A stretch of DNA of 64,000 bases, taken from Phycisphaerae bacterium. GTDB lineage: Bacteria; Planctomycetota; Phycisphaerae; Sedimentisphaerales; Anaerohalosphaeraceae. Positions 41,257 to 53,353 of the stretch are shown in pieces. The notes under the pieces were generated by a model that saw nothing but the letters and a program-made list of their open reading frames with translations, did not search any database and had not been told where the DNA came from. The stretch's first letter is position 1. Each line of letters starts with the position of its first letter. The DNA lies in NCBI GenBank assembly GCA_014859965.1, contig JACZKQ010000047.1, forward strand, positions 1-64,000, read 5' to 3'. The position numbers and the translations under genes are program-made.

Positions 41257-44200
41257 TTAGTACGGCCAGGTCTGATCTTGCAGCCAGTAACTTGCCAGGA
41301 CGGCAAAGTCCTTGAGATTGATAACCTTCTGTCCGGCCGGTTCGTCGCTGCTCAGATCGGCATGCGAGGCGATCGGGACGACCAGTTGACCATCGCCGGG
41401 CGTCAGGTCGGCCAGATAGGCCACTTCCAGCGCCGACAAAGCGCGATTGTAAATCTGGACCTCATCAATGTCGCCACTGAACACCTCGCTGGTGTTGCCG
41501 CCATGTGTCGCGCCGATGCCCATAAGGGCGTCGGCCTTGTCGGCCAGGGCGAACGGCCCGGAGGCAATCTGTGCACCATTGAGATAAATCACGGCCGTGG
41601 TTGCGTCAAACGTAACGGCGACATGCGCCCACTTGCCGACAAACGGATCCAACACACCGTTAGCGGAATAGAGGTCGACGCCCGCTGACGAATGCTGACG
41701 AAGGGCGATTCGCCCGAGCGGGTCCGTTTCAACGAACCATCTCATGGCATTGGTAGCGTCCCAGCCGCTGCGCTTGCCGATGATGCCCTGGTGATCGTTG
41801 GACCTGTTGCCCGCCCACCTGATCCAAAGTGACAATGTAAGCTGCCCGGTGCCCTGCGAGGGATCCCATGTGCCAATCTCTATGCGGCTGTTGGCAGTCC
41901 CGTCAATACGGACAGCATGGCCGGTTCCATCGTGGCCGGGTGATATCCAGGTGACACCGTTGTATAAGGTTCCCTGGGGCGTAGGATCGTTGGCGTCGGC
42001 CACCGCAAGGCTGCCTTGGCCGATATCGAGCATGTAGTGCGCCACTCTGCCTCCCGCGTCATTGGGATCAGTGGTGCCGGCGGGCAGAATCGCATCGCGT
42101 TTCAGCCAATCGGCCGCCATGTGCATCAGTTCGGCAGTGTTAATCTTGCAATCTCCGGCAGTAAGGCCAAGCGGTGCAAAGTCTATCCTCGCAAAATCTG
42201 CCGTCCTCAAGTTGAGGAGGCACTCGCCCTGATAGAGCCGAATATCGTCAAAATAGACCGTGCCATCGAAGCCGCCGGGCGCCGGATTCAGCGGATCACC
42301 AAAGCCGAAGGCGATCCTGACGACATCCTTTCGATTGACATTGGAAAACCAGGCTAAACCGATGTCCCAAAGCTGCCATTCTTCCTTGCTGAGATTAGCC
42401 AGGTCGCCGTCGTAGAAGACGACATCGCTGCGGCCTTGTCCATCCTCAAGCAGGGCATACATATCTTCCGCCGGGGTGTTCGGGTCGCCGTGGAAATACA
42501 CCGTCATCCGCCTGACGTCACCCTGCGTCAGGTCGCTGAGTTCGGCAGGCACTGCATAACTGATCTCGGTGTAGTACGGCGCAACCCTGTTATCGAAAAT
42601 AATCTTCATCGCCTGGCTGCCGCCATGGACGGGGTCGGTCACCAGGTCATTGGCATCCGACCACACGGCGGCAAGGTCCACCCAGTCGAGGTAGGATTCG
42701 AAGTCTTCAACCAGAATGTTGTTCGATACCGTGAAGCTCCAGATATCGCCTTTTGTAATGGTCACCTCATTGGCGTCGGAGATAGCGATCTCGTCGACGC
42801 GCCAATAATACGGCGTGCTCAGATCCAGGTCGCCCGGAGTAAATGTGGTTTCCGTCGTATCGTGATAAATGACCTGGGGATAGTTCGCCAGGTTGTCGCG
42901 GCTGACGCTGTTCAGAGCAGCGGCATCGTCGCTTATGAAGACGTCATGCGACACCGCGCCGACTCCGGCTCTCCAGTTCAGAGCCGTTTGGCGATCTACG
43001 CCGGTGGCATTGCGGCCCGGTACGGGGTCATGGGCCTTGAACATGATCGGGAAGTTGAAGTTGTCAAAGTAGAAGGCTTTGTTGCCCGTGTAGTTGCGGC
43101 TAATCTGCGCGACAATCTCGATTTCAAACCACCAAAAGCCCAAGTCACTTCTGATCATCGGAATGATGTTGGAGTAGTCCCACTCGATGGTCATGGTGCG
43201 GTCACCCATGCCTGGATTCCAAGCGCCGCGTCCGCCGGATTGCTGCCATACACTCCATTCCGGTCCGCCGCAGTTGATGATCAGGGAGAACTGATTGTGG
43301 GTCTCCGTGCCGGGGATCCAGTCAGCGGCCAGACGGGTAACATCGATCTTCATGCTTCGACTATTCAGGAACGCCTGCTCCATGCCAGCTTGATCCCTGA
43401 CGTAGATCAGCATCACGCGCTGCCACCAGGTGTTGCTCTGGTAAATCTCATTGGGCATAGTGACTTTGAGGCTGCTCTCGTTCATGGTCGCGCCGATCGC
43501 GCTGTACTCAAATACCGGCGTGTATCCGACTTCGGCTATTGTGGTCGTAATCGGCTGCCATCCATCGTCCTGGTTTTCCCAGTCGCCGAACACGTTGGCC
43601 GCCCCCTGCTGGGGCGCAGGTCCGATTCGAACGTTGTCCACATAAAACTTGGTTGCCGGGGAGTCGGTATTCGAAACAAAGAGGATTTCGAACCAGCCGA
43701 TGCTGTCGTCGGTCATCGCAATTTTTGCAATCAGGTCCGCGGACAGTTCCCAGACGACGGTATGCGGCTGTCCGTCGCGCGCCACGTCCCGACCGCCCAG
43801 ATCGACCCAGCCTATGTTGTTGTGCGGGCCGTTATCGTCATTATTCTGCGCATTGATAACCATTCCAACATTGAACCACGACCCGGTCATGTCCGCGGCG
43901 AAGGCGGTGACATCCATTGCGACCAACGCGCCGGGCGTGCCGAACATGCTGCGGTACGGTTTGACATTGTAGATGGCGCCGGGGTGCCAGTCGCCGGCCG
44001 CATGTTCCACCTGCAATGCATGTGAACCCTTGGTGGCGCCGGTGGTCGACTGTGTAAGCGTTGCGGCGTCCCAATTCACGGGCGCCCACGTATCCAGGCC
44101 GCTTTCAAAATTGCCGATCACCATGGTCGGGGTGGGCTCGTTGATCTGAACATTGTCAATGTTGACAGTCAGCGAGTTGGCGTCACCCACGTCGTTGTTG

Positions 44201-44700
44201 ATGACGAGGACGATTTCGAACCACGCGATCGAGCCATCGGCCTGCGCAATATCGCCGGCCAGGTCGGCATCCAATTTCCACTTGTAGGTATGGGCAGCTC
44301 CGTCACGCACCAGATCCTGGGCGGCAAGCCCTCTCCAGCCGATGTTATTGTTCGGGCCATTGTTATCATTATTCTGTGCGTTGATGACAATCTGGCCGTT
44401 CATCCATGTTCCGCCCTCGATGTACGACACAGTAATATCCGCACTGATCGTTGTGCCTTCGACACCCAGGGACGCCATGTAAGGCTTGCCATCCAGTTTG
44501 GCGGCCTGTTTCCAGCCGCCGGACAGATCCGCCTGCATGGCAGAGGCGCCGACGGTTGCCCCGGTGGCGCTCTGCGACAGGGCGGCGTTCTCGGACCACC
44601 AGCCGTCGAGGCCGGTTTCGAAGTCGCCTACGACAATGCCCAAGGCCGCCGGCACTATGGCGAACAACAGTACGATGAAGTACAAGGCTTGCTTACACAT
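41257..44700 (-). CDS. Large secreted multi-domain protein with repeated CBM-like modules and LamG
   Basis: 1147 aa from ATG 44700 (AAGGAG upstream; signal peptide ALYFIVLLFAIVPAALG). The N-terminal half contains three related modules of about 170 residues, starting IVVGDFETGLDGW, MVIGNFESGLDTW and NVFGDWENQDDGW; the first two share NNDNNGPNNNIGW-type loops. A YYWRVDEIAI Fn3-like segment, another CBM-like module (ILVEDFESYLDWVDLAAVW), a degenerate dockerin-like internal motif (AGDCKINTAELMHMAADW), LamG (AVTFDATTAVIYLNGAQI) and a final NLKDFAVLASYWL tail follow. No catalytic residues recognised. Probably a glycan-binding surface protein transcribed alone from the 44917-44946 promoter. Confidence 0.8.
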   Translation of the reverse strand: MCKQALYFIVLLFAIVPAALGIVVGDFETGLDGWWSENAALSQSATGATVGASAMQADLSGGWKQAAKLDGKPYMASLGVEGTTISADITVSYIEGGTWMNGQIVINAQNNDNNGPNNNIGWRGLAAQDLVRDGAAHTYKWKLDADLAGDIAQADGSIAWFEIVLVINNDVGDANSLTVNIDNVQINEPTPTMVIGNFESGLDTWAPVNWDAATLTQSTTGATKGSHALQVEHAAGDWHPGAIYNVKPYRSMFGTPGALVAMDVTAFAADMTGSWFNVGMVINAQNNDDNGPHNNIGWVDLGGRDVARDGQPHTVVWELSADLIAKIAMTDDSIGWFEILFVSNTDSPATKFYVDNVRIGPAPQQGAANVFGDWENQDDGWQPITTTIAEVGYTPVFEYSAIGATMNESSLKVTMPNEIYQSNTWWQRVMLIYVRDQAGMEQAFLNSRSMKIDVTRLAADWIPGTETHNQFSLIINCGGPEWSVWQQSGGRGAWNPGMGDRTMTIEWDYSNIIPMIRSDLGFWWFEIEIVAQISRNYTGNKAFYFDNFNFPIMFKAHDPVPGRNATGVDRQTALNWRAGVGAVSHDVFISDDAAALNSVSRDNLANYPQVIYHDTTETTFTPGDLDLSTPYYWRVDEIAISDANEVTITKGDIWSFTVSNNILVEDFESYLDWVDLAAVWSDANDLVTDPVHGGSQAMKIIFDNRVAPYYTEISYAVPAELSDLTQGDVRRMTVYFHGDPNTPAEDMYALLEDGQGRSDVVFYDGDLANLSKEEWQLWDIGLAWFSNVNRKDVVRIAFGFGDPLNPAPGGFDGTVYFDDIRLYQGECLLNLRTADFARIDFAPLGLTAGDCKINTAELMHMAADWLKRDAILPAGTTDPNDAGGRVAHYMLDIGQGSLAVADANDPTPQGTLYNGVTWISPGHDGTGHAVRIDGTANSRIEIGTWDPSQGTGQLTLSLWIRWAGNRSNDHQGIIGKRSGWDATNAMRWFVETDPLGRIALRQHSSAGVDLYSANGVLDPFVGKWAHVAVTFDATTAVIYLNGAQIASGPFALADKADALMGIGATHGGNTSEVFSGDIDEVQIYNRALSALEVAYLADLTPGDGQLVVPIASHADLSSDEPAGQKVINLKDFAVLASYWLQDQTWPY

Positions 44701-45190
44701 ACAAATCTCCTTTCAACGAACCTGACTTACGCTTCTTTCACTAAATTATTTATATTTGCAAGTGTGAAACTCCATATGCTTTGCGCAAGATCCTCCAAAG
44801 ACCGGTGACTATAGGAAAAGGGGTTGAGGATTCTGCACGGCGCAATGAACGCGCCAATCCCCGAGCCAGTCGCCACACCTCCGATTATCACCCTTCTTGT
44901 ACCTCCCAATTTCCAAATTGTACTCATTCGGCAAGGTCTGTGTCAAACGAAAATAATCGAGCGCCGCATGGCCGCTTCAAGCAGCGATATACACGACCCG
45001 ACGAATCTTTATCCTGACAATGGGCGAAGGTGGTGACTGAAAACCAGCTTTGCGCCTGTGAGCACCGGACGCAGGCCGGTCTTGACGAGGACCAGTATTC
45101 TTCTTGCAGAGTTTGGACATGGGCGGTATCCTTTTGGTACCATAGGACTGACAAGTTGAACATAAGGCATAATCTCAGGAGGCTGAATCG
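44701..45190. other. Intergenic region between divergent LamG and GH116 genes
   Basis: 490 nt. It holds the minus-strand promoter and leader described at 44917, and the ribosome-binding site AGGAGG of the GH116 gene. No convincing plus-strand promoter or gene was found. Confidence 0.45.
44917..44946 (-). promoter_or_regulatory. Sigma-70-type promoter of the 1147-aa LamG gene
   Basis: On the minus strand TTGACA (44946-44941), 18 nt, TACAAT (44922-44917). The start near 44910 leaves a leader of about 210 nt, similar in length to that of unit 2. A GGCGC / GCGCC hairpin lies in it at 44839-44855. Confidence 0.6.
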
Positions 45191-48100
45191 ATGAAACGGC
45201 GTGAGTTCCTCAAAATGACGGCGTTGGGGTCGGCGGGGCTGGTTGCCGGCGGCCTGCGGGGTGTAAGCCGATATGGCTGTGTTCAGGCCGCAATCGTGCA
45301 AGCACCGGATCATTTCGTACCCGTTGAGAAGAAACTGCCGCAGAACTGGGTTAAGGGCCTGTTCGCCAAGGGGGGCAAGACCGTTTACAGCGGAAAGAGC
45401 CTTGACACCATCGGCATGCCGTGCGGGGGCATCTGCTCGGGGCAGCTCTATCTGACCGGGGAGGGTCGATTCGGGTACTGGGATATCTTCAACGTGGGAA
45501 AGTTCACGGGTTACGGTGCGACCAATTACGAGTTGGGCCGCGTCCCGGCACAGCCGGTGGACAACGGTTTTGCAGTCCGGGTGCGTTCGGGCGATAAAGA
45601 CCTCGTGCGTTCGCTGGACCGGAAGGGGTTTTCCAGTGTGCAGTTCTGCGGCGAGTACCCCGTGGCCTACGTGGATTATGCGTCGCAGGACGTTCCGGTG
45701 AAGGTTTCGCTGGAGTGCTTTTCGCCGTTTATCCCGCTCAATGCACCCGATTCAGGGCTTCCGTCCACAATTCTCCAGTTCACTATCAAGAATCTTTCTT
45801 CGGCAAACGCAGAGGTGACGCTGGCCGGCTGGCTGCAGAATGCCGTCTGCATGCACACGGGCGGCAGCTTTAACGGACAGATCAGCAACCAACTGCTGAA
45901 ACACGGCGAGATGACGATGGTTCAAGGCAGTGCACAGGCGGCGGAAACGCCGACAGGCGACAGGCCAGCCATCGTTTTTGCAGACTTCGAAGGCGCCGAT
46001 TACGGCGAGTGGACGGCTCAGGGCGAGGCCTTCGGCAAGGGGCCGGCCCGCGGAACACTGGCAAATCAGCAGGAAGTCAGCGGCTTTGCGGGCAAGGGGC
46101 TGGTTAATACTTTTCTCGGCGGCGACGACAAATTGCAGGGCAAGCTCACCAGCCCGCTGTTTGCCGTGGAACGCATGTTCGTCAGCTTCCTGATCGGCGG
46201 GGGCAGCCACGACAAGACCTGTATGAATCTCATTGTCGACGGCAAGGTCGTGCGTACGGCCAAAGGCAAGAACAATGAGAGGCTGGAGTGGCAAAGCTGG
46301 AACGTCAAGGAATTCGAAGGCAAGCAGGCCCGCATCGAAATCGTTGATGCCGAAAGCGGCGGCTGGGGGCACATCAATGTGGACCAGATCGAGTTCGGCG
46401 ACAAGCCTCGCTCGGGCCCGAGCGGCAAACTTAGTGAACAGCACGACTTCGGCACAATGGGTTTGGCGGTGTTCGGAAACGGGGTGCTCGTCAGCAGCCT
46501 GTCCCTGCCTGAAGGCGAGCTGCAGGGCGCCTTCATTGACGGCGGCCTGGCCGATGACGGCAAAGCGACCAAGGCCCTGGGCCAACTCCTGAGGGGCGCC
46601 GTCGGAAAGAAGATGACGCTCAAGGCGGGTGAAAAACAGCAGGTCACGTTTGTGCTGAGCTGGTGTTTTCCTCACCGCCGGACGCGCAACCAACTCGTCG
46701 GCAATGCGTATGCGCGACGATTCAAGCAGGCAAACGAGGTGGCCGAGTATATCGTCGACAATTTTGACCGCCTGGCCGGACAGACACGTTTGTGGCATGA
46801 CACTTACTACGATTCGACGCTGCCGCACTGGCTTCTGGACCGGCTGCACTCGACGGCGTCCACTCTGGCCAGCGAAACCTGCCAGTGGTGGGGCAACGGC
46901 CGATTCTGGGCATGGGAAGGGGTTGGCTGCTGCCACGGCACGTGCACGCACGTTTGGAATTATGAGCATACGATGGCCAGGCTGTTCCCGGAATTGGAGC
47001 GGTCGGTTCGTGAAATGCAGGACTATGAGCCGGCGGCCGGATTCGATGAAGCGACCGGTTTGGTACGTTTTCGCGGCGAGGACTGGAACATGTGGGCCGC
47101 CGACGGTCAGGCGGGCACCGTCCTCAAGGCTTACCGCGAACACCAGGTGTCGACCGATGACGCGTTCCTCAAGCGGAACTGGCCCCGGATCCGCAAGTCG
47201 CTGGAATTTCTCATCAAGGAGGACGGCAACAGCGACGGCATACTCGAAGGCAAGCAGCACAATACATACGATATCGACTTCTACGGCGCCAATCCGATGA
47301 TCGGCTCACTGTACCTGGGGGCCCTGAGGGCGGGTGAAGAAATGGCGCTCGAACTCGGCGACAAGGCGTTCGCCGAGCAGTGCCGCACCATCTTTGCCGC
47401 CGGCATGAAGTACACCGAAGAGAAGCTCTTCAACGGCGAGTACTTCGTGCAGCTCGTGGACCACATACGCCATCCGGATGCGCAATACGGCGACGGCTGC
47501 CTGTCGGATCAGGTGTTCGGTCAGGGCTGGGCGTTCCAGACGGGCCTGGGACACGTCTATCCGAAGGAGCAGACGCGAGCAACCCTTGAGGCGATATGGA
47601 AGTACAACTGGGCGCCGGACGTGGGCCCGCAAAATCAGGTACACGCGCCGGAGCGGTGGTTCGCCCGCCCGGGCGAGGCGGGGCTGTTTACATGCACATG
47701 GCCCAGGAGCAAGCACATGGGCGCAAAGTCCGTGCGATATCGTGACGAAATCTGGACCGGCATCGAATACCAGGTCGCCGGGCACATGGCGTGGGAAGGG
47801 ATGGTCACCGAAGCGCTGGCCATATGCCGAGGCATCCATGAGCGGTATCACCCTTCCAAGCACAACCCGTGGAATGAGATCGAATGCGGCGATCATTATG
47901 CCCGGGGGATGGCCAGTTGGGGGGTGTTGCTCGGCTTGTGCGGTTTTGAATATCACGGCCCCAAAGGGCGCATTGCATTTGGCCCGCGCGTAACGCCGGA
48001 GGATTTCAAAGCTCCCTTTACGGCCGCCGAAGGCTGGGGCTCCATTGCTCAAAAGCGCACCGGGCGTACGCAAGTGAACCGCATCGACGTAAGTTGGGGC

Positions 48101-48289
48101 AGGTTGCGACTCAACGAGATTGAAGTCACCCTTCCCGAACGAACCACGCCGAAGACCGTAAAGGCCAAGGCAGGCGACAGAGAGTTGAGCGTGAAGACGA
48201 GGAAACAGGGTGACGGTCTGGTCGTTTCGCTTCCCCCGAGTACGGCTGTAGAGGCGGGCCGGTCGGTCGTTTTGGAAATCGAGATATAG
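45191..48289 (+). CDS. Tat-exported GH116-type glycosidase (GBA2/glucosylceramidase-like) with inserted domain
   Basis: 1032 aa. A twin-arginine signal (MKRREFLKMTALGSAGLVAG) precedes the GH116 N-terminal beta-domain (IGMPCGGICSGQLYLTGEG, VSLECFSPFIPLNAPDSGLP). Residues about 258-410 form an inserted sandwich (FADFEGADYGEWTAQGEAFG, MNLIVDGKVVRTAKG, HINVDQIEFGDKP) like modules seen in some GH32-type proteins. The catalytic (alpha/alpha)6 domain follows: WWGNGRFWAWEGVGCCHGTC, HNTYDIDFYG (Asp region of the acid/base) and GQGWAFQTGLGHVY. GH116 members are beta-glucosidases, beta-xylosidases or glucosylceramidases; specificity is not decided. A ceramidase-like gene lies 1.5 kb downstream. Confidence 0.87.
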   Translation: MKRREFLKMTALGSAGLVAGGLRGVSRYGCVQAAIVQAPDHFVPVEKKLPQNWVKGLFAKGGKTVYSGKSLDTIGMPCGGICSGQLYLTGEGRFGYWDIFNVGKFTGYGATNYELGRVPAQPVDNGFAVRVRSGDKDLVRSLDRKGFSSVQFCGEYPVAYVDYASQDVPVKVSLECFSPFIPLNAPDSGLPSTILQFTIKNLSSANAEVTLAGWLQNAVCMHTGGSFNGQISNQLLKHGEMTMVQGSAQAAETPTGDRPAIVFADFEGADYGEWTAQGEAFGKGPARGTLANQQEVSGFAGKGLVNTFLGGDDKLQGKLTSPLFAVERMFVSFLIGGGSHDKTCMNLIVDGKVVRTAKGKNNERLEWQSWNVKEFEGKQARIEIVDAESGGWGHINVDQIEFGDKPRSGPSGKLSEQHDFGTMGLAVFGNGVLVSSLSLPEGELQGAFIDGGLADDGKATKALGQLLRGAVGKKMTLKAGEKQQVTFVLSWCFPHRRTRNQLVGNAYARRFKQANEVAEYIVDNFDRLAGQTRLWHDTYYDSTLPHWLLDRLHSTASTLASETCQWWGNGRFWAWEGVGCCHGTCTHVWNYEHTMARLFPELERSVREMQDYEPAAGFDEATGLVRFRGEDWNMWAADGQAGTVLKAYREHQVSTDDAFLKRNWPRIRKSLEFLIKEDGNSDGILEGKQHNTYDIDFYGANPMIGSLYLGALRAGEEMALELGDKAFAEQCRTIFAAGMKYTEEKLFNGEYFVQLVDHIRHPDAQYGDGCLSDQVFGQGWAFQTGLGHVYPKEQTRATLEAIWKYNWAPDVGPQNQVHAPERWFARPGEAGLFTCTWPRSKHMGAKSVRYRDEIWTGIEYQVAGHMAWEGMVTEALAICRGIHERYHPSKHNPWNEIECGDHYARGMASWGVLLGLCGFEYHGPKGRIAFGPRVTPEDFKAPFTAAEGWGSIAQKRTGRTQVNRIDVSWGRLRLNEIEVTLPERTTPKTVKAKAGDRELSVKTRKQGDGLVVSLPPSTAVEAGRSVVLEIEI

Positions 48290-48328
48290 CACAGGATACC
48301 GGCGTGCAGGCAATGATATGAGGACGCG

Positions 48329-48463
48329 ATGATTGAGACGTGCATGGGCAAATTGACGCCGGCGGTGATGTTCGGTTCACAGGAAGTACTGGTTATCGTT
48401 ATTGTGACGGCGATTGTGGTGTTCATGGTTGCCCGCGGCCGGCGAAAGAGCAAGAAGGATTAA
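48329..48463 (+). CDS. TatA-like microprotein
   Basis: 44 aa from ATG 48329 with GAGGAC upstream. One membrane helix (VLVIVIVTAIVVFMVA, residues about 20-36) is preceded by MFGSQE and followed by a basic tail (RGRRKSKKD). FGxxE before a hydrophobic helix is the start signature of TatA/TatE, but the amphipathic helix that normally follows is missing. It stands 40 nt after a Tat-dependent enzyme gene, so it could be a small Tat accessory subunit or simply a short membrane protein. Too short for firm assignment. Confidence 0.45.
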   Translation: MIETCMGKLTPAVMFGSQEVLVIVIVTAIVVFMVARGRRKSKKD

Positions 48464-48563
48464 GGAAGGCTCCGATCCGCGTGCCGCTGCCCGGGAAATT
48501 GGAACAAAACGGTCCTGACCCTCGCGATCGTGCCGAGTTGACGTGAGATTTTGTGAAAAGCAT

Positions 48564-48592
48564 TTGACACGGAGGGTGTTTTAACTTATACT
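48564..48592 (+). promoter_or_regulatory. Sigma-70-type promoter of the structured small RNA
   Basis: TTGACA (48564-48569), exactly 17 nt, TATACT (48587-48592). It is close to consensus and has no protein-coding gene directly downstream on this strand. Confidence 0.8.
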
Positions 48593-48598
48593 CTATTC

Positions 48599-48724
48599 TG
48601 TTGCGAGTGCAAATCGGCGGTTTCGCTGTGGCGCTACCCGCGGTAGGGCGCCTGATGGCACATCGCACCAGGGAGACCGGCTCACAACCCGATCGATAGA
48701 TAGATCGCCCGTCTCCCTTTTTTT
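48599..48724 (+). ncRNA. Free-standing structured small RNA with intrinsic terminator
   Basis: About 125 nt between a near-consensus promoter and a T7 terminator. The RNA folds into a three-way junction. P1 pairs TGCGAGTGC (48602-48610) with GCAC-A-TCGCA (48658-48667, one bulged A). P2 is CGGCG/CGCTG (48615-48619, 48624-48628). P3 is GGCGC-TACC / GGTA-GG-GCGCC (48630-48652, with a GG bulge). The terminator stem GGGAGAC / GTCTCCC (48671-48677, 48711-48717) contains an inner CGATC/GATCG hairpin. I do not recognise the class: it lacks the motifs of SRP RNA, tmRNA, 6S or the common riboswitches I checked. No sense gene follows it, so it looks like a trans-acting RNA. Confidence 0.7.
48671..48724 (+). 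terminator. Terminator of the small RNA
   Basis: Stem GGGAGAC (48671-48677) / GTCTCCC (48711-48717) with an internal CGATC/GATCG stem, followed by seven T (48718-48724). Confidence 0.8.
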
Positions 48725-48761
48725 ATGCGCACACCGAGGCCAATGCGCAGCACGGCACACT

Positions 48762-49580
48762 TCAGGACCCTTGGCCGGGGAGCCATGACATCACTATCCA
48801 TACGAGCCATGACACTACCATCCACAGGGCGGCGGCGGCGGCAAGGATAGTCACGGCGGCGTTAAACAATTTTTGCAGTATGTGCCTCACCAGAAATATA
48901 CCGCCGACGGCCCCGATGACCACAAAGGGAAAGAGAAACAAATCAATCTTCAGCGATTCGGGGGTGATCATCTGCAAGTTCGACTGGAACGGGACCTTGA
49001 GCCAGTTCATGATGAAGAAGAACCATGCGGTGGTGCCGACAAATTCCAATTTGGGCAGGCCGACCGCCAGCAGGTAAACGATCATGATCGGGCCGGCGGC
49101 ATTGGCCATCATCGTGGTATAGCCTGCCAGAAACCCGAAAACAATCGCGAACATCCATCGGTTCAGCGCACTGGTATGGTCGTATTGCAGCGCGGCCGAC
49201 TTGCGGCTGTTGTTCCACGTGCTTACCGCCAGGAGGACCAGAACGATCAGGCCGATGATGGGCTTGAGCTGGCGATCGTTGATTCGCCCTAACGTGTCGT
49301 GGGCCGCGACAATTCCGACAATTGCAAAACCGATAAGCCGCGCGATATGATTCCAGTGGGCCTTGCGATGATAATACGCAGCGGCAAATAAATCGGCGAA
49401 GATCAGGAGCGGCAGCACAAGCCCCACCGAGGCCTTGGGCGGCATGACCATCGCCGCAATCAAAACGACGAGGATGCCTACACCCGGCATGCCCGTCTTG
49501 GACAACCCGACCATAAACGCACAAAGGCCCAGCAGCACCCACTGCCAGATACCAAGTTCAAGCGTACCGAAATCAAACAT
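48762..49580 (-). CDS. TauE/SafE (TSUP) family membrane permease
   Basis: 272 aa, hydrophobic throughout with about eight membrane segments. WVLLGLCAFMVGLSKTGMPG at the N-terminus is the TSUP hallmark G(L/I)(S/G)K.G.PG, and FGFLAGYTTMMANAAGPIMI in the second half is its repeat. The family exports or imports sulfite, sulfoacetate and related organosulfur anions. The nearby sulfatase (53766) would release sulfate or sulfonated sugars, but a functional link is speculative. It converges with the small RNA gene. Confidence 0.87.
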   Translation of the reverse strand: MFDFGTLELGIWQWVLLGLCAFMVGLSKTGMPGVGILVVLIAAMVMPPKASVGLVLPLLIFADLFAAAYYHRKAHWNHIARLIGFAIVGIVAAHDTLGRINDRQLKPIIGLIVLVLLAVSTWNNSRKSAALQYDHTSALNRWMFAIVFGFLAGYTTMMANAAGPIMIVYLLAVGLPKLEFVGTTAWFFFIMNWLKVPFQSNLQMITPESLKIDLFLFPFVVIGAVGGIFLVRHILQKLFNAAVTILAAAAALWMVVSWLVWIVMSWLPGQGS

Positions 49581-49770
49581 GCAACCTGCTTTCCCGCAAA
49601 AGACGTAAAGGTTCGGCCAAACCGCCGGTCCGAAGACGGTATCCTACAGCAATGCCCGCAAAAGACAAAGACTCTTTCTCCGCGTTTTGGCCCGAGTATC
49701 TCAAACCGAGGCTCAGTCGAGTCGTATTGGCGGCATATCACCGGCCCCCTGCTTTTCTCTCGGCAACGGC

Positions 49771-49799
49771 TTGAATCCGGCGACCGGCGAGAGTATAAT
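49771..49799 (+). promoter_or_regulatory. Sigma-70-type promoter of the ceramidase-like gene
   Basis: TTGAAT (49771-49776), 17 nt, TATAAT (49794-49799); the start codon at 49825 is about 20 nt after the expected start site. Confidence 0.65.
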
Positions 49800-49824
49800 A
49801 GCCGGTATATTGAGGAGATTTGAA

Positions 49825-51132
49825 ATGGAACATCGCATCTGCAAACTCTGTCTCGTGCTGACCGTCCTGATGATCATGTTATTCGCCGCCGGCAACGCCT
49901 CCGCCACCTTGCGGGCGGGTGCGGCCCGGGTGGATATTACACCCCCGGTGGGAGTCTGGCTTTCGGGCTACGGGGCACGCAAGCAGCCAAGCACCAAGAT
50001 CGCCGATCCGCTGTACGCCAAGGCGCTCGTGTTGGACGATGGCGCCAGCCAGATCGCCATCGTCAGTACGGATCTGCTTTGGCTGCCGCTGGAGATCACC
50101 AATGAGATTCGGCGGCGGGTGCACAAGGAAACGGGGATCGCCCGGGACCACATCATGATCTGCGGGACGCATACGCACTGGGGCCCTAAGATAGACCGAC
50201 CCGCGGCGACGTGGCCGGACGCGGCGGAATCCCGGATCAGTGACGACTTTGTCGACGTCCTGACGAGCAAGACGGCGCTTTGCATCGTCGACGCCTTCCG
50301 CAAAGCGGCCGATGCGGCTCCGGCGGCGGTCGGCATGGCCCGGGGCCATATCGATGAGATCACTTACAACCGGCGCACGCTGCGGCCGGACGGCACGGTC
50401 GTCAATACGTTCCGACTGCCCGCCGCCAGCCCGGACCTGAAGTTCGGACCGACCGACCCGACCGTTTCCATCCTGAAAGTGCAGGATGCCGGCGGCCGAC
50501 TCATAGCCGCGATGGTCAACTATGCCTGCCATCCGGTGGCAGGCGACGCCGATCCTGAGTTGTTCTATCACTTGTCCGCGGATTATCCCGGCGTCATGGA
50601 GTCGATTGTCGAGAAGATCGAAGGCGGCACCTGCCTGTTCCTGTTGGGCGCCGCGGGCAACATCAATCCCGTGCGATTCCAGCGTACGCGCTTTCGCCAT
50701 GAAATCGGCGCTGCGCTGGCCGGCGAGGTCCTGCGGCGTTTGCAGACGGTGACGGCGACGGAGGACGCAAAGCTGAGAGGGATGACACGGCCTATCACCT
50801 TCGATCTCAAACCCGTCGAAGGCGACAAGCCCGAAGACGCGCCGCGCACGCTCACTACGCAGATACAACTTCTTGCGGTGGGCGATATGTATATCCTCGG
50901 ACTGCCCAGCGAGGTGCTGGTGGAGATCGGCTTTGCGATCAGAGCCAAAGCGGGCATCGAGAAACTGTTTATCGTTTCCATCGCAAACGACACCTGCGGC
51001 TACATCTGCCCTAAGGAGGCGTACGAACAAGGGGGCTACGAATCCACCAGCGCAACACGCCTGGCCCAGCGAGCGGGTGAACACCTCGCGGCCGAGGCGC
51101 TGGACCTTATGGCGGCGATGAAGGGTCAGTAA
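49825..51132 (+). CDS. Secreted neutral/alkaline ceramidase-like protein
   Basis: 435 aa from ATG 49825 (GAGGAG upstream, signal peptide LCLVLTVLMIMLFAAGNAS). LRAGAARVDITPPVGVWLSG is the classic start of the neutral ceramidase N-terminal domain. Zn-site residues are plausible in ICGTHTHWGP and NYACHPVAGD, the latter followed by the DYPG segment. It is shorter than true ceramidases (about 650-750 aa) because the C-terminal Ig-like domain is missing. Planctomycetes carry many such paralogues, so the substrate need not be ceramide. It has its own promoter and converges, 3 nt apart, with the DegT-type gene. Confidence 0.82.
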   Translation: MEHRICKLCLVLTVLMIMLFAAGNASATLRAGAARVDITPPVGVWLSGYGARKQPSTKIADPLYAKALVLDDGASQIAIVSTDLLWLPLEITNEIRRRVHKETGIARDHIMICGTHTHWGPKIDRPAATWPDAAESRISDDFVDVLTSKTALCIVDAFRKAADAAPAAVGMARGHIDEITYNRRTLRPDGTVVNTFRLPAASPDLKFGPTDPTVSILKVQDAGGRLIAAMVNYACHPVAGDADPELFYHLSADYPGVMESIVEKIEGGTCLFLLGAAGNINPVRFQRTRFRHEIGAALAGEVLRRLQTVTATEDAKLRGMTRPITFDLKPVEGDKPEDAPRTLTTQIQLLAVGDMYILGLPSEVLVEIGFAIRAKAGIEKLFIVSIANDTCGYICPKEAYEQGGYESTSATRLAQRAGEHLAAEALDLMAAMKGQ

Positions 51133-51135
51133 TAT

Positions 51136-52476
51136 CTACGCGAGTTTGTCGCGGTTTTCGTAGACTTTCGTGACCGCGTTGGCGATGTCGTCCATATCCT
51201 GCTTTGTGCCCAACAACAGGTTCTGCGTGAACCACACCGCCTCGGTGCAGAGCCTGTCGTTCTCCGGGTAAACGAGTTCCTCCCGATAGCTCTTGAGCCG
51301 TTCGGCGGGGAAGCTGCGCTTAAAGTTTTTCGAATTGAGAGCATCCTCGATGAGACCATCTTTGTACTGGGGGCCATAGCCGCCGGAGCAGGGTATGCCC
51401 TCGGCTCGCAGGGCTTCCATAAATCGGCCGCGCGAAAGGCCGAGTGCCTGGGGCTTGACGCGAAAGGCATAGAGATGGTAAGCGCCGCGGCCGCCTTCGT
51501 AAATCTTCTGCGGCAGTATGCCCGGGATGTCCTTCAGCCGCGCGTCCAGGTAAGCGGCGTTCTCCCGCCGTCTGGCGGTGTCGGCCACCAGCCGCTTCAT
51601 CTGCGACAGGAGTATCGCCGCCTGGTACTCGGTCATGCGGCGATTGGTGCCGACGATCGGATAGCCGCTGGTCGCCTTCATGCCGCCGTAAGCCCTGCCG
51701 CAATTGTGGAAAGCATGCGCCCGGTCCATGAGATCGTCGTCGTTTCCGACGACCGCCCCGCCTTCGCCGCAGGGCAGGTGCTTCGAATTCTGGAAGCTGA
51801 AGCAGCCGAGATCGCCGACCGTGCCGAGTTTACGGCCCCGCCACTCGCCGAGCCACGCCTGACAGGCATCCTCGATCACGACGAGGTTGTGCTTTTTGGC
51901 GATAGCCAGTATCCTGTCCAGGTTGGCCGGTTGGCCCAGGATGTGCACCGGCAAGATGGCTCGGGTGCGCTCCGTAATACGTGCTTCGATCTTGTTGGGA
52001 TCGATCTGCATGGTCGCCGGATCGGTATCGGCGAAGACGGGCAGAGCACAGGATTGCAGGACAACATTGTAGGTGGCGATAAACGTGTAAGGCGAAACAA
52101 TGACCTCGTCGCCGACGCCCACATCCAGCATGTGCAGGGCCGTCAGGAGGGCATTAGTGCCATTGACGACGCACAATGCGCGTTTCGCTCCCAGCAGTTC
52201 AGCATAGGCCTTCTCAAACTGAGTCACGGTGTTGCCGCTGCCGCGAAACCAGTTGCCGCTTCGCAGGATGGAAAGGACATGTTCCTCCGCCTCGGGGTCC
52301 CAGACGGGCCATCCGGGAAAAGGTCTGGTGCGTATGCGAGGACCGCCGAGGAGCGCCGGCCTGGCTGTGCCGGCGACAGTTGCAGAAAAAGCTGTCCCGG
52401 CAGGACAGGCCATCCCCATGGCCCCCACTGATGCCGCAGCCATAAACGTCCGTCGTGAAATAGCCTCACCAGACAT
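51136..52476 (-). CDS. Tat-exported DegT/DnrJ/EryC1/StrS-type PLP aminotransferase
   Basis: 446 aa. A twin-arginine signal (AISRRTFMAAASVGAMGMAC) precedes a complete sugar-aminotransferase fold. Substrate/PLP motifs are GSGNTVTQFEKAYAELLGAK, NGTNALLTALHML, VIEDACQAWLGEWRG, and the PLP lysine in FSFQNSKHLPCGEGGAV (Lys about residue 229). The C-terminal half includes GTNRRMTEYQAAILLSQM. DegT enzymes normally act on nucleotide sugars in the cytoplasm, so a signal peptide is unusual; the protein may be exported folded with PLP. A promoter candidate is at 52533-52561. Confidence 0.85.
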   Translation of the reverse strand: MSGEAISRRTFMAAASVGAMGMACPAGTAFSATVAGTARPALLGGPRIRTRPFPGWPVWDPEAEEHVLSILRSGNWFRGSGNTVTQFEKAYAELLGAKRALCVVNGTNALLTALHMLDVGVGDEVIVSPYTFIATYNVVLQSCALPVFADTDPATMQIDPNKIEARITERTRAILPVHILGQPANLDRILAIAKKHNLVVIEDACQAWLGEWRGRKLGTVGDLGCFSFQNSKHLPCGEGGAVVGNDDDLMDRAHAFHNCGRAYGGMKATSGYPIVGTNRRMTEYQAAILLSQMKRLVADTARRRENAAYLDARLKDIPGILPQKIYEGGRGAYHLYAFRVKPQALGLSRGRFMEALRAEGIPCSGGYGPQYKDGLIEDALNSKNFKRSFPAERLKSYREELVYPENDRLCTEAVWFTQNLLLGTKQDMDDIANAVTKVYENRDKLA

Positions 52477-52532
52477 ATCGGTCTCCTCTGTTAGTGCCTC
52501 GATTTCGATGCAATGCCGCAGAACCTACTGCT

Positions 52533-52561
52533 TTCATACCAGAAAAAGGGCTGATATGCAA
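52533..52561 (-). promoter_or_regulatory. Promoter candidate of the DegT-type gene
   Basis: On the minus strand TTGCAT (52561-52556), 17 nt, TATGAA (52538-52533). Moderate match to sigma-70 consensus. Confidence 0.35.
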
Positions 52562-52669
52562 GCGCGGCATTTTGCCGCAAAAACATGCCGACGGAGCTTC
52601 TCATGTAAACTCGAATGGGCAGGACCCGTATAAACAACTAAGCTGGCATTTTTTCGAAAGGGTTGAAAA

Positions 52670-53353
52670 ATGGGGGCCAAACACGTCATTTCGAGGAACA
52701 GCGAGATATTCACCGACAGGGCCGACGCGGCCGAGCGCCTTGCTGAAGTATTGCAGGAATTCAAAAGTGAGCACCCCGTGATACTTGGCATACCCCGCGG
52801 CGGAGTGGTTGTCGCCGACCACCTGGCCCGGTCGCTCGACGGCGATCTGGACATCGTGCTTGCCCACAAACTGGGAGCACCTGCAAACCGGGAGTTGGCG
52901 ATCGGCGCCGTATGCGAGGACGGCACAGCTTTTGTCGACGAGCGGATAGCGCGCGCAGTGGCGGCGAGCGAGCAGTACATCGAACGCGAAAAGCACGCGC
53001 AGCTCCAGTTGATGCAGCAGCGGGTCGCGCGATATCGCGAGATTCTCTGCAAGACGGATCTGCGAGACCGGGTGGTTATCGTCACCGACGATGGTGTAGC
53101 GACGGGCGCTACCATGAAGGCGGCGCTGTGGGCAGTTCGCCAGGAAGAGCCGCAGCGAACAGTCGCGGCCTTGCCGGTGGGTCCGTCGAATACCATAGAG
53201 GAACTGGCCGAGACCGCCGATGAGGTGATCTGCCTGGAGACACCGCCTTATTTTGCCGCGATTGGACAGTTCTATCGCCGGTTCGAACAGGTGGACGACT
53301 CGGAACTGCTGGCCATTCTGCAGCACGAACATGAAAGGAGATGCAGAGTATGA
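52670..53353 (+). CDS. Phosphoribosyltransferase domain protein
   Basis: 227 aa. GIPRGGVVVADHLARSL supplies the phosphate-binding beginning of the fold, and RVVIVTDDGVATGATMKAAL is the PRPP-binding loop. The central hood region (LAIGAVCEDGTAFVDE) is typical of this COG1926-like group, which is often fused to alpha/beta hydrolases like the one at 24117. Substrate base is unknown. Its stop overlaps the start of the PPOX gene (ATGA), so the two are translated together. Confidence 0.85.
   Translation: MGAKHVISRNSEIFTDRADAAERLAEVLQEFKSEHPVILGIPRGGVVVADHLARSLDGDLDIVLAHKLGAPANRELAIGAVCEDGTAFVDERIARAVAASEQYIEREKHAQLQLMQQRVARYREILCKTDLRDRVVIVTDDGVATGATMKAALWAVRQEEPQRTVAALPVGPSNTIEELAETADEVICLETPPYFAAIGQFYRRFEQVDDSELLAILQHEHERRCRV

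Follow-up and report, generated by a model that had tools for sequence, protein, structure and literature searches.

The window analysed here, a stretch of 64,000 nucleotides from a Phycisphaerae bacterium, contains a real, conserved structured RNA at 48600-48724, as judged from the changes seen among its homologues. It belongs to an undescribed family that, across the genomes searched, is almost limited to the order Sedimentisphaerales. The reading we favour, and consider rather probable, is that of a stand-alone, Hfq-independent small RNA that would act as a kissing-loop homodimer together with a partner. It adds a widespread and well-delimited RNA family to a group of bacteria that lack Hfq and whose RNA regulation has hardly been explored.

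The RNA gene and its conserved fold

The RNA is preceded by a promoter of the sigma70 type, TTGACA-17-TATACT, already recognised in an earlier, sequence-only reading of this DNA. It matches the consensus at 11 of 12 positions and shares the top rank among the 10 promoter-like sites of 44000-53000, against 3.2 expected by chance. The predicted +1 at 48599/48600 falls on the first bases of P1, and the RNA end falls in the T7 run, in keeping with the earlier claim of a product of about 125 nt with a T7 terminator. Two covariance models, R1 and R2, match 48598-48730 with 111 bits. The promoter is kept in the family: a site with at least 9 of 12 consensus bases lies at a fixed spacing from the RNA in 107 of 117 homologues, versus 1.2% of shuffled upstream sequences. 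Transcription would probably be constitutive, starting at the P1 5' strand and ending at the P4 terminator. A small ORF inside the RNA was considered and rejected: inspection by eye showed neither a start nor a frame that is conserved, and the compensatory changes are those expected of an RNA. A separate ORF of 44 amino acids lies at 48329-48463 on the plus strand; it has one hydrophobic segment and a basic C-terminus (MIETCMGKLTPAVMFGSQEVLVIVIVTAIVVFMVARGRRKSKKD) and possibly encodes a small membrane protein.

Table 1 Features of the RNA gene and its flanks in the window
Feature	Position	Strand	Basis or detail
Sigma70-type promoter TTGACA-17-TATACT	48564..48592	+	-35 at 48564-48569, -10 at 48587-48592, 17-nt spacer
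Structured RNA, about 125 nt	48600..48724	+	covariance-model match and promoter position
P1 5' strand UGCGA-GUGC	48602..48610	+	pairs with 48658-48667; covariation
P2 hairpin CGGCG-GUUU-CGCUG	48615..48628	+	covariation, constrained fold
P3 hairpin GGCGCU-[11-nt loop]-GGCGCC	48630..48652	+	covariation, constrained fold
Self-complementary P3 loop hexamer CCGCGG, proposed kissing-loop dimerisation site	48638..48643	+	homologue loops
P1 3' strand GCAC-A-UCGCA, one bulged A	48658..48667	+	covariation
P4 terminator hairpin (AGGGAGAC...GUCUCCCU), GGAG/CUCC nearly invariant	48670..48718	+	fold, covariation
Conserved P4 bulge CUCACAA (type I consensus CYACAA)	48681..48687	+	homologue comparison
Intrinsic terminator T7 run	48718..48724	+	kept in homologues
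TGCGC directly 3' of the T run	48726..48730	+	kept in most copies

The RNA region folds with a minimum free energy of -56.1 kcal/mol (z = -4.0), and none of 200 shuffles was as stable. Covarying pairs in homologues, which had been named as a test of the RNA, are abundant. In an alignment of 99 copies, which was fitted to a covariance model and hence leans towards it, 28 of the 29 pairs changed on both sides (P1 10/11, P2 4/4, P3 5/5 and P4 9/9). The same alignment contains 367 double-changed cells, compared to 115 when shuffled, and 89.5% of its cells are paired; the leaning notwithstanding, slid registers still drop to 34-60%. A smaller first alignment, made with MAFFT and using no structure, gave 13 pairs changed on both sides versus 7.8 in shuffles; 81.7% of its cells are paired, versus 37-52% in slid registers.

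The closed three-way junction that had been proposed stands as the consensus of the family, where covariation is strong, and not as the minimum-energy fold of the window's own sequence. The lowest-energy fold of 48600-48724 is more rod-like, with the P3 loop paired to a P2 strand. Support for the junction comes from the family rather than from the energy of the window sequence, because the latter prefers this alternative by 7.0 kcal/mol over the three-way form with an open CCGCGG loop. The window's copy is the extreme case: the cost of the open-loop form is 2 kcal/mol or less in 34 of 67 copies and exceeds 4 kcal/mol in 8.

Distribution, neighbouring genes and known RNA classes

A plain DNA search of 39 genomes from the window's family revealed clear homologues in many, with the promoter, P1, P2, P3, P4, the T run and then TGCGC in common. 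A covariance model built from 18 homologues found the RNA in 105 of 161 Sedimentisphaerales genomes. Where it matched in the window's family there was nearly always one copy per genome; genomes of a sister family have up to three. In 397 genomes drawn from the class, just a single strong match (92.6 bits) fell outside the order, and a later model, built from 99 copies, left this picture unchanged. For the phylum, with 392 genomes, the matches outside the order were just two, both weak and shortened. A pattern scan of named genomes gave one true homologue among the 80 loci listed, in a Sedimentisphaerales bacterium (L145, 87.6 bits, confirmed by the model). The covariance search over planctomycetes proposed earlier thus does find homologues, in a narrower range than the phylum: almost only Sedimentisphaerales. 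The single strong match outside the order (L059 in genome G174, another family of the class) may reflect horizontal transfer, a misplaced genome or contamination.

The genes that flank the homologues differ between genera, and none is common to them; downstream genes lie on either strand. By eye, the neighbours resemble a 3D-domain protein, a radical SAM protein, RibD, riboflavin synthase, a sodium symporter, SahH, a peptidyl-prolyl isomerase and ribonucleotide reductase. A junction followed by a terminator is also the layout of a terminating riboswitch, and one could take the RNA for a riboswitch or attenuator that acts in cis as the leader of a gene downstream. We consider this very improbable. 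The sole feature between the RNA and the next plus-strand gene in the window is a convergent ORF (48762-49580, minus strand). That gene, with its ATG at 49825, lies 1.1 kb on and has its own promoter, TTGAAT-17-TATAAT (49771-49799), which agrees with the earlier claim that no sense gene follows before it. No conserved association with a downstream gene, as a cis-acting riboswitch would have, was found for the window or the homologues, and a cis role is not indicated because the neighbours are unrelated genes in different genera. The RNA is a stand-alone one, and with no neighbour shared among the genera it is most naturally read as trans-acting, which we consider probable. Riboflavin genes adjoin the RNA in some genera (L057, L063, L068; L006, L015), probably by chance; with RibD upstream in g44 and g56 and riboflavin synthase upstream in g11, the link is not general.

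The sequence-only reading could assign the RNA to no known class, and the searches bear this out. The Rfam 15 families gave no match for the window, and none up to E = 10 for 48500-48760; at 20 divergent homologue loci nothing scored above the gathering score. A literature search limited to open-access sources found no description of the family. The window's genome does have another stand-alone bacterial RNA gene, 6S RNA (RF00013), whose sole match in the genome lies elsewhere as a separate gene (contig C159, 39675-39859). OLE, ROOL and GOLLD are orphan bacterial structured RNAs that form homo-oligomers (PMC12286853); they are far larger than the window RNA, which has no Rfam match to them.

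Self-complementarity of the P3 loop

The P3 loop is 11 nt long and contains the hexamer CCGCGG in 68 of the 74 copies that have such a loop. The other six carry CCUAGG (L060, L091), CCAUGG (L087, L088), UCGCGA (L096) or CCUGGG (L064). In each of these, two symmetric positions are substituted relative to CCGCGG and the capacity to self-pair is kept, in CCUGGG through U-G wobbles. All 74 loops are therefore self-complementary, one of them by wobble, and no hexamer with a single substitution was seen among them. The compensatory evidence comes from six copies in about five lineages or events, two of the six being from one genus (g3), while most copies carry the identical hexamer. Two random substitutions would give a strict palindrome with a probability of 1/15; if, as the most conservative null has it, variation is free at the two central bases only, all four central variants would be self-complementary with a probability of about 0.02. 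For the variant loops, self-pairing is predicted at -9 to -12 kcal/mol. The earlier reading of the RNA is supported; it overlooked both this self-complementary loop and the conserved bulge in P4.

These symmetric changes point to a kissing-loop homodimer. Pairing between molecules is the simplest explanation, because a two-base loop cannot close CC/GG inside one hairpin. Kissing-loop dimers through six-base loop palindromes occur in HIV-1 and in oskar mRNA, and the HIV-1 DIS presents its GC-rich palindrome in a hairpin loop with flanking unpaired bases, where it can self-pair (PMC7357161). The P3 loop has in common with the DIS a six-base, GC-rich, self-pairing palindrome in a hairpin loop; the DIS, though, is an element of a viral genomic RNA, whereas the window RNA is stand-alone and bacterial and its dimer is predicted from sequence. 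In the mechanism we propose, the P1-P2-P3 junction would present the P3 loop, and two RNAs would pair through CCGCGG. Counting against a dimer, the minimum-energy fold of the window sequence buries the palindrome (by 7.0 kcal/mol). The symmetric changes of the palindrome predict an RNA homodimer in an unusually direct and testable way.

We weighed two other uses of the loop. The RNA might be a monomeric antisense regulator, with the P3 loop or the P4 bulge as an mRNA seed and the palindrome either incidental or matched to a palindrome in the target. Stand-alone small RNAs with terminators are commonly antisense regulators, and the P3 loop and the CYACAA bulge are the only strongly conserved unpaired stretches of the family. 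Against this, the 5' end is locked in P1, the order lacks Hfq, the structure is conserved throughout, unlike in typical antisense small RNAs, and the loop changes in symmetric pairs, which an antisense seed would not need. We therefore hold antisense action to be unlikely. The second use is mimicry of the 530 loop of 16S rRNA (GCCGCGGUAA), by which the RNA would titrate a ribosome-binding factor. The common P3 loop AUCCGCGGUAA and the 530 loop both contain CCGCGGUAA. Such mimicry is scarcely credible, given that CCUAGG, CCAUGG and UCGCGA retain the palindrome and lose the match to rRNA.

Two subfamilies and candidate partners

The copies fall into two types, a division made by eye and with simple patterns, in which L088 and L127 mix features of both. 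Type I combines the P4 bulge CYACAA with the P3 palindrome; the window RNA, with its bulge CUCACAA, belongs here. In type II, P4 carries GUGACGAA and P3 is short or absent; its members are mostly additional copies, or the sole ones that parts of the sister family have. Self-complementarity is mostly missing from divergent copies whose loop is shorter, and predicted self-pairing is only +0.1 to -2.7 kcal/mol for five of six loops in divergent copies. Dimerisation is not the function of the whole family, because P3 or the palindrome is mostly absent from type II. The two subfamilies offer a natural comparison between dimerising and non-dimerising forms. Near one type II copy (L097, 251-376, plus strand), a sub-threshold match to PrrB/RsmZ was seen at 64-194 on the minus strand (26.6 bits, E 0.0083, gathering score 44).

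A dimer of type I RNAs would display two P4 regions, each with the bulge CYACAA and the flank A(A/G)GGAG, to a partner. Our guess is that a protein is likelier in this role than a group of target mRNAs. Hfq is no candidate: none of 159 genomes of the order encodes it, with controls positive, and the RNA of this Hfq-less order is Hfq-independent. More tentatively, and with some doubt, we suggest a housekeeping-type RNA that would work only as a kissing-loop homodimer and offer two symmetric sites to a (perhaps dimeric) protein, in an order without Hfq and alongside a paralogous subfamily in which dimerisation was lost and the recognition bulge exchanged.

We also considered CsrA, whose consensus has the core ACARGGA. 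In this reading, ACARGGA at the P1/P4 junction would be a CsrA site, and the RNA would either titrate CsrA or have CsrA binding compete with the terminator hairpin. GGA is present in 115 of 119 copies and A(A/G)GGA at the P1/P4 junction in 100 of 119. Conservation of the GGAG strand of P4 reaches 96-98%, in contrast to the variation seen in other helices. Of 157 genomes of the order, 134 have a CsrA gene, and so does the window's genome. CsrA, however, is found also in families without the RNA, so co-occurrence gives no support. Like CsrB/RsmZ, the window RNA is stand-alone and contains GGA in a host with CsrA. Unlike them, it has few GGA motifs, and Rfam gives no CsrB/RsmZ match at the RNA. 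Across the 119 copies, 61 have one GGA and 49 have two, and the several loop GGA motifs typical of CsrB/RsmZ were not found; the conserved GGA is base-paired in the P4 helix, whereas CsrA prefers GGA in loops. We hold a CsrA-binding RNA to be quite unlikely, with CsrA as one candidate for the partner.

A motif behind the terminator

TGCGC at 48726-48730 is probably a feature of the terminator rather than part of the RNA. Genome-wide, the pattern TTTTTNTGCGC occurs 43 times, compared to 14 for the reversed pattern, and about half of the 20 sites inspected (L250-L269) lie behind strong hairpins. Since TGCGC also trails other hairpin-T runs in the genome, a part specific to this RNA is unlikely. 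It follows 4 of 38 hairpin and T-run sites versus 17 of 644 T runs, and at 4 of 38 it is no universal terminator element. The T run and TGCGC together are possibly a terminator-strengthening element of the lineage. A pairing of GUGCA in P1 with the post-terminator UGCGC, suggested by RNAalifold, was rejected, as lineages without TGCGC still keep GUGCA. One of the inspected TTTTTNTGCGC sites follows an apparent tRNA 3' end.
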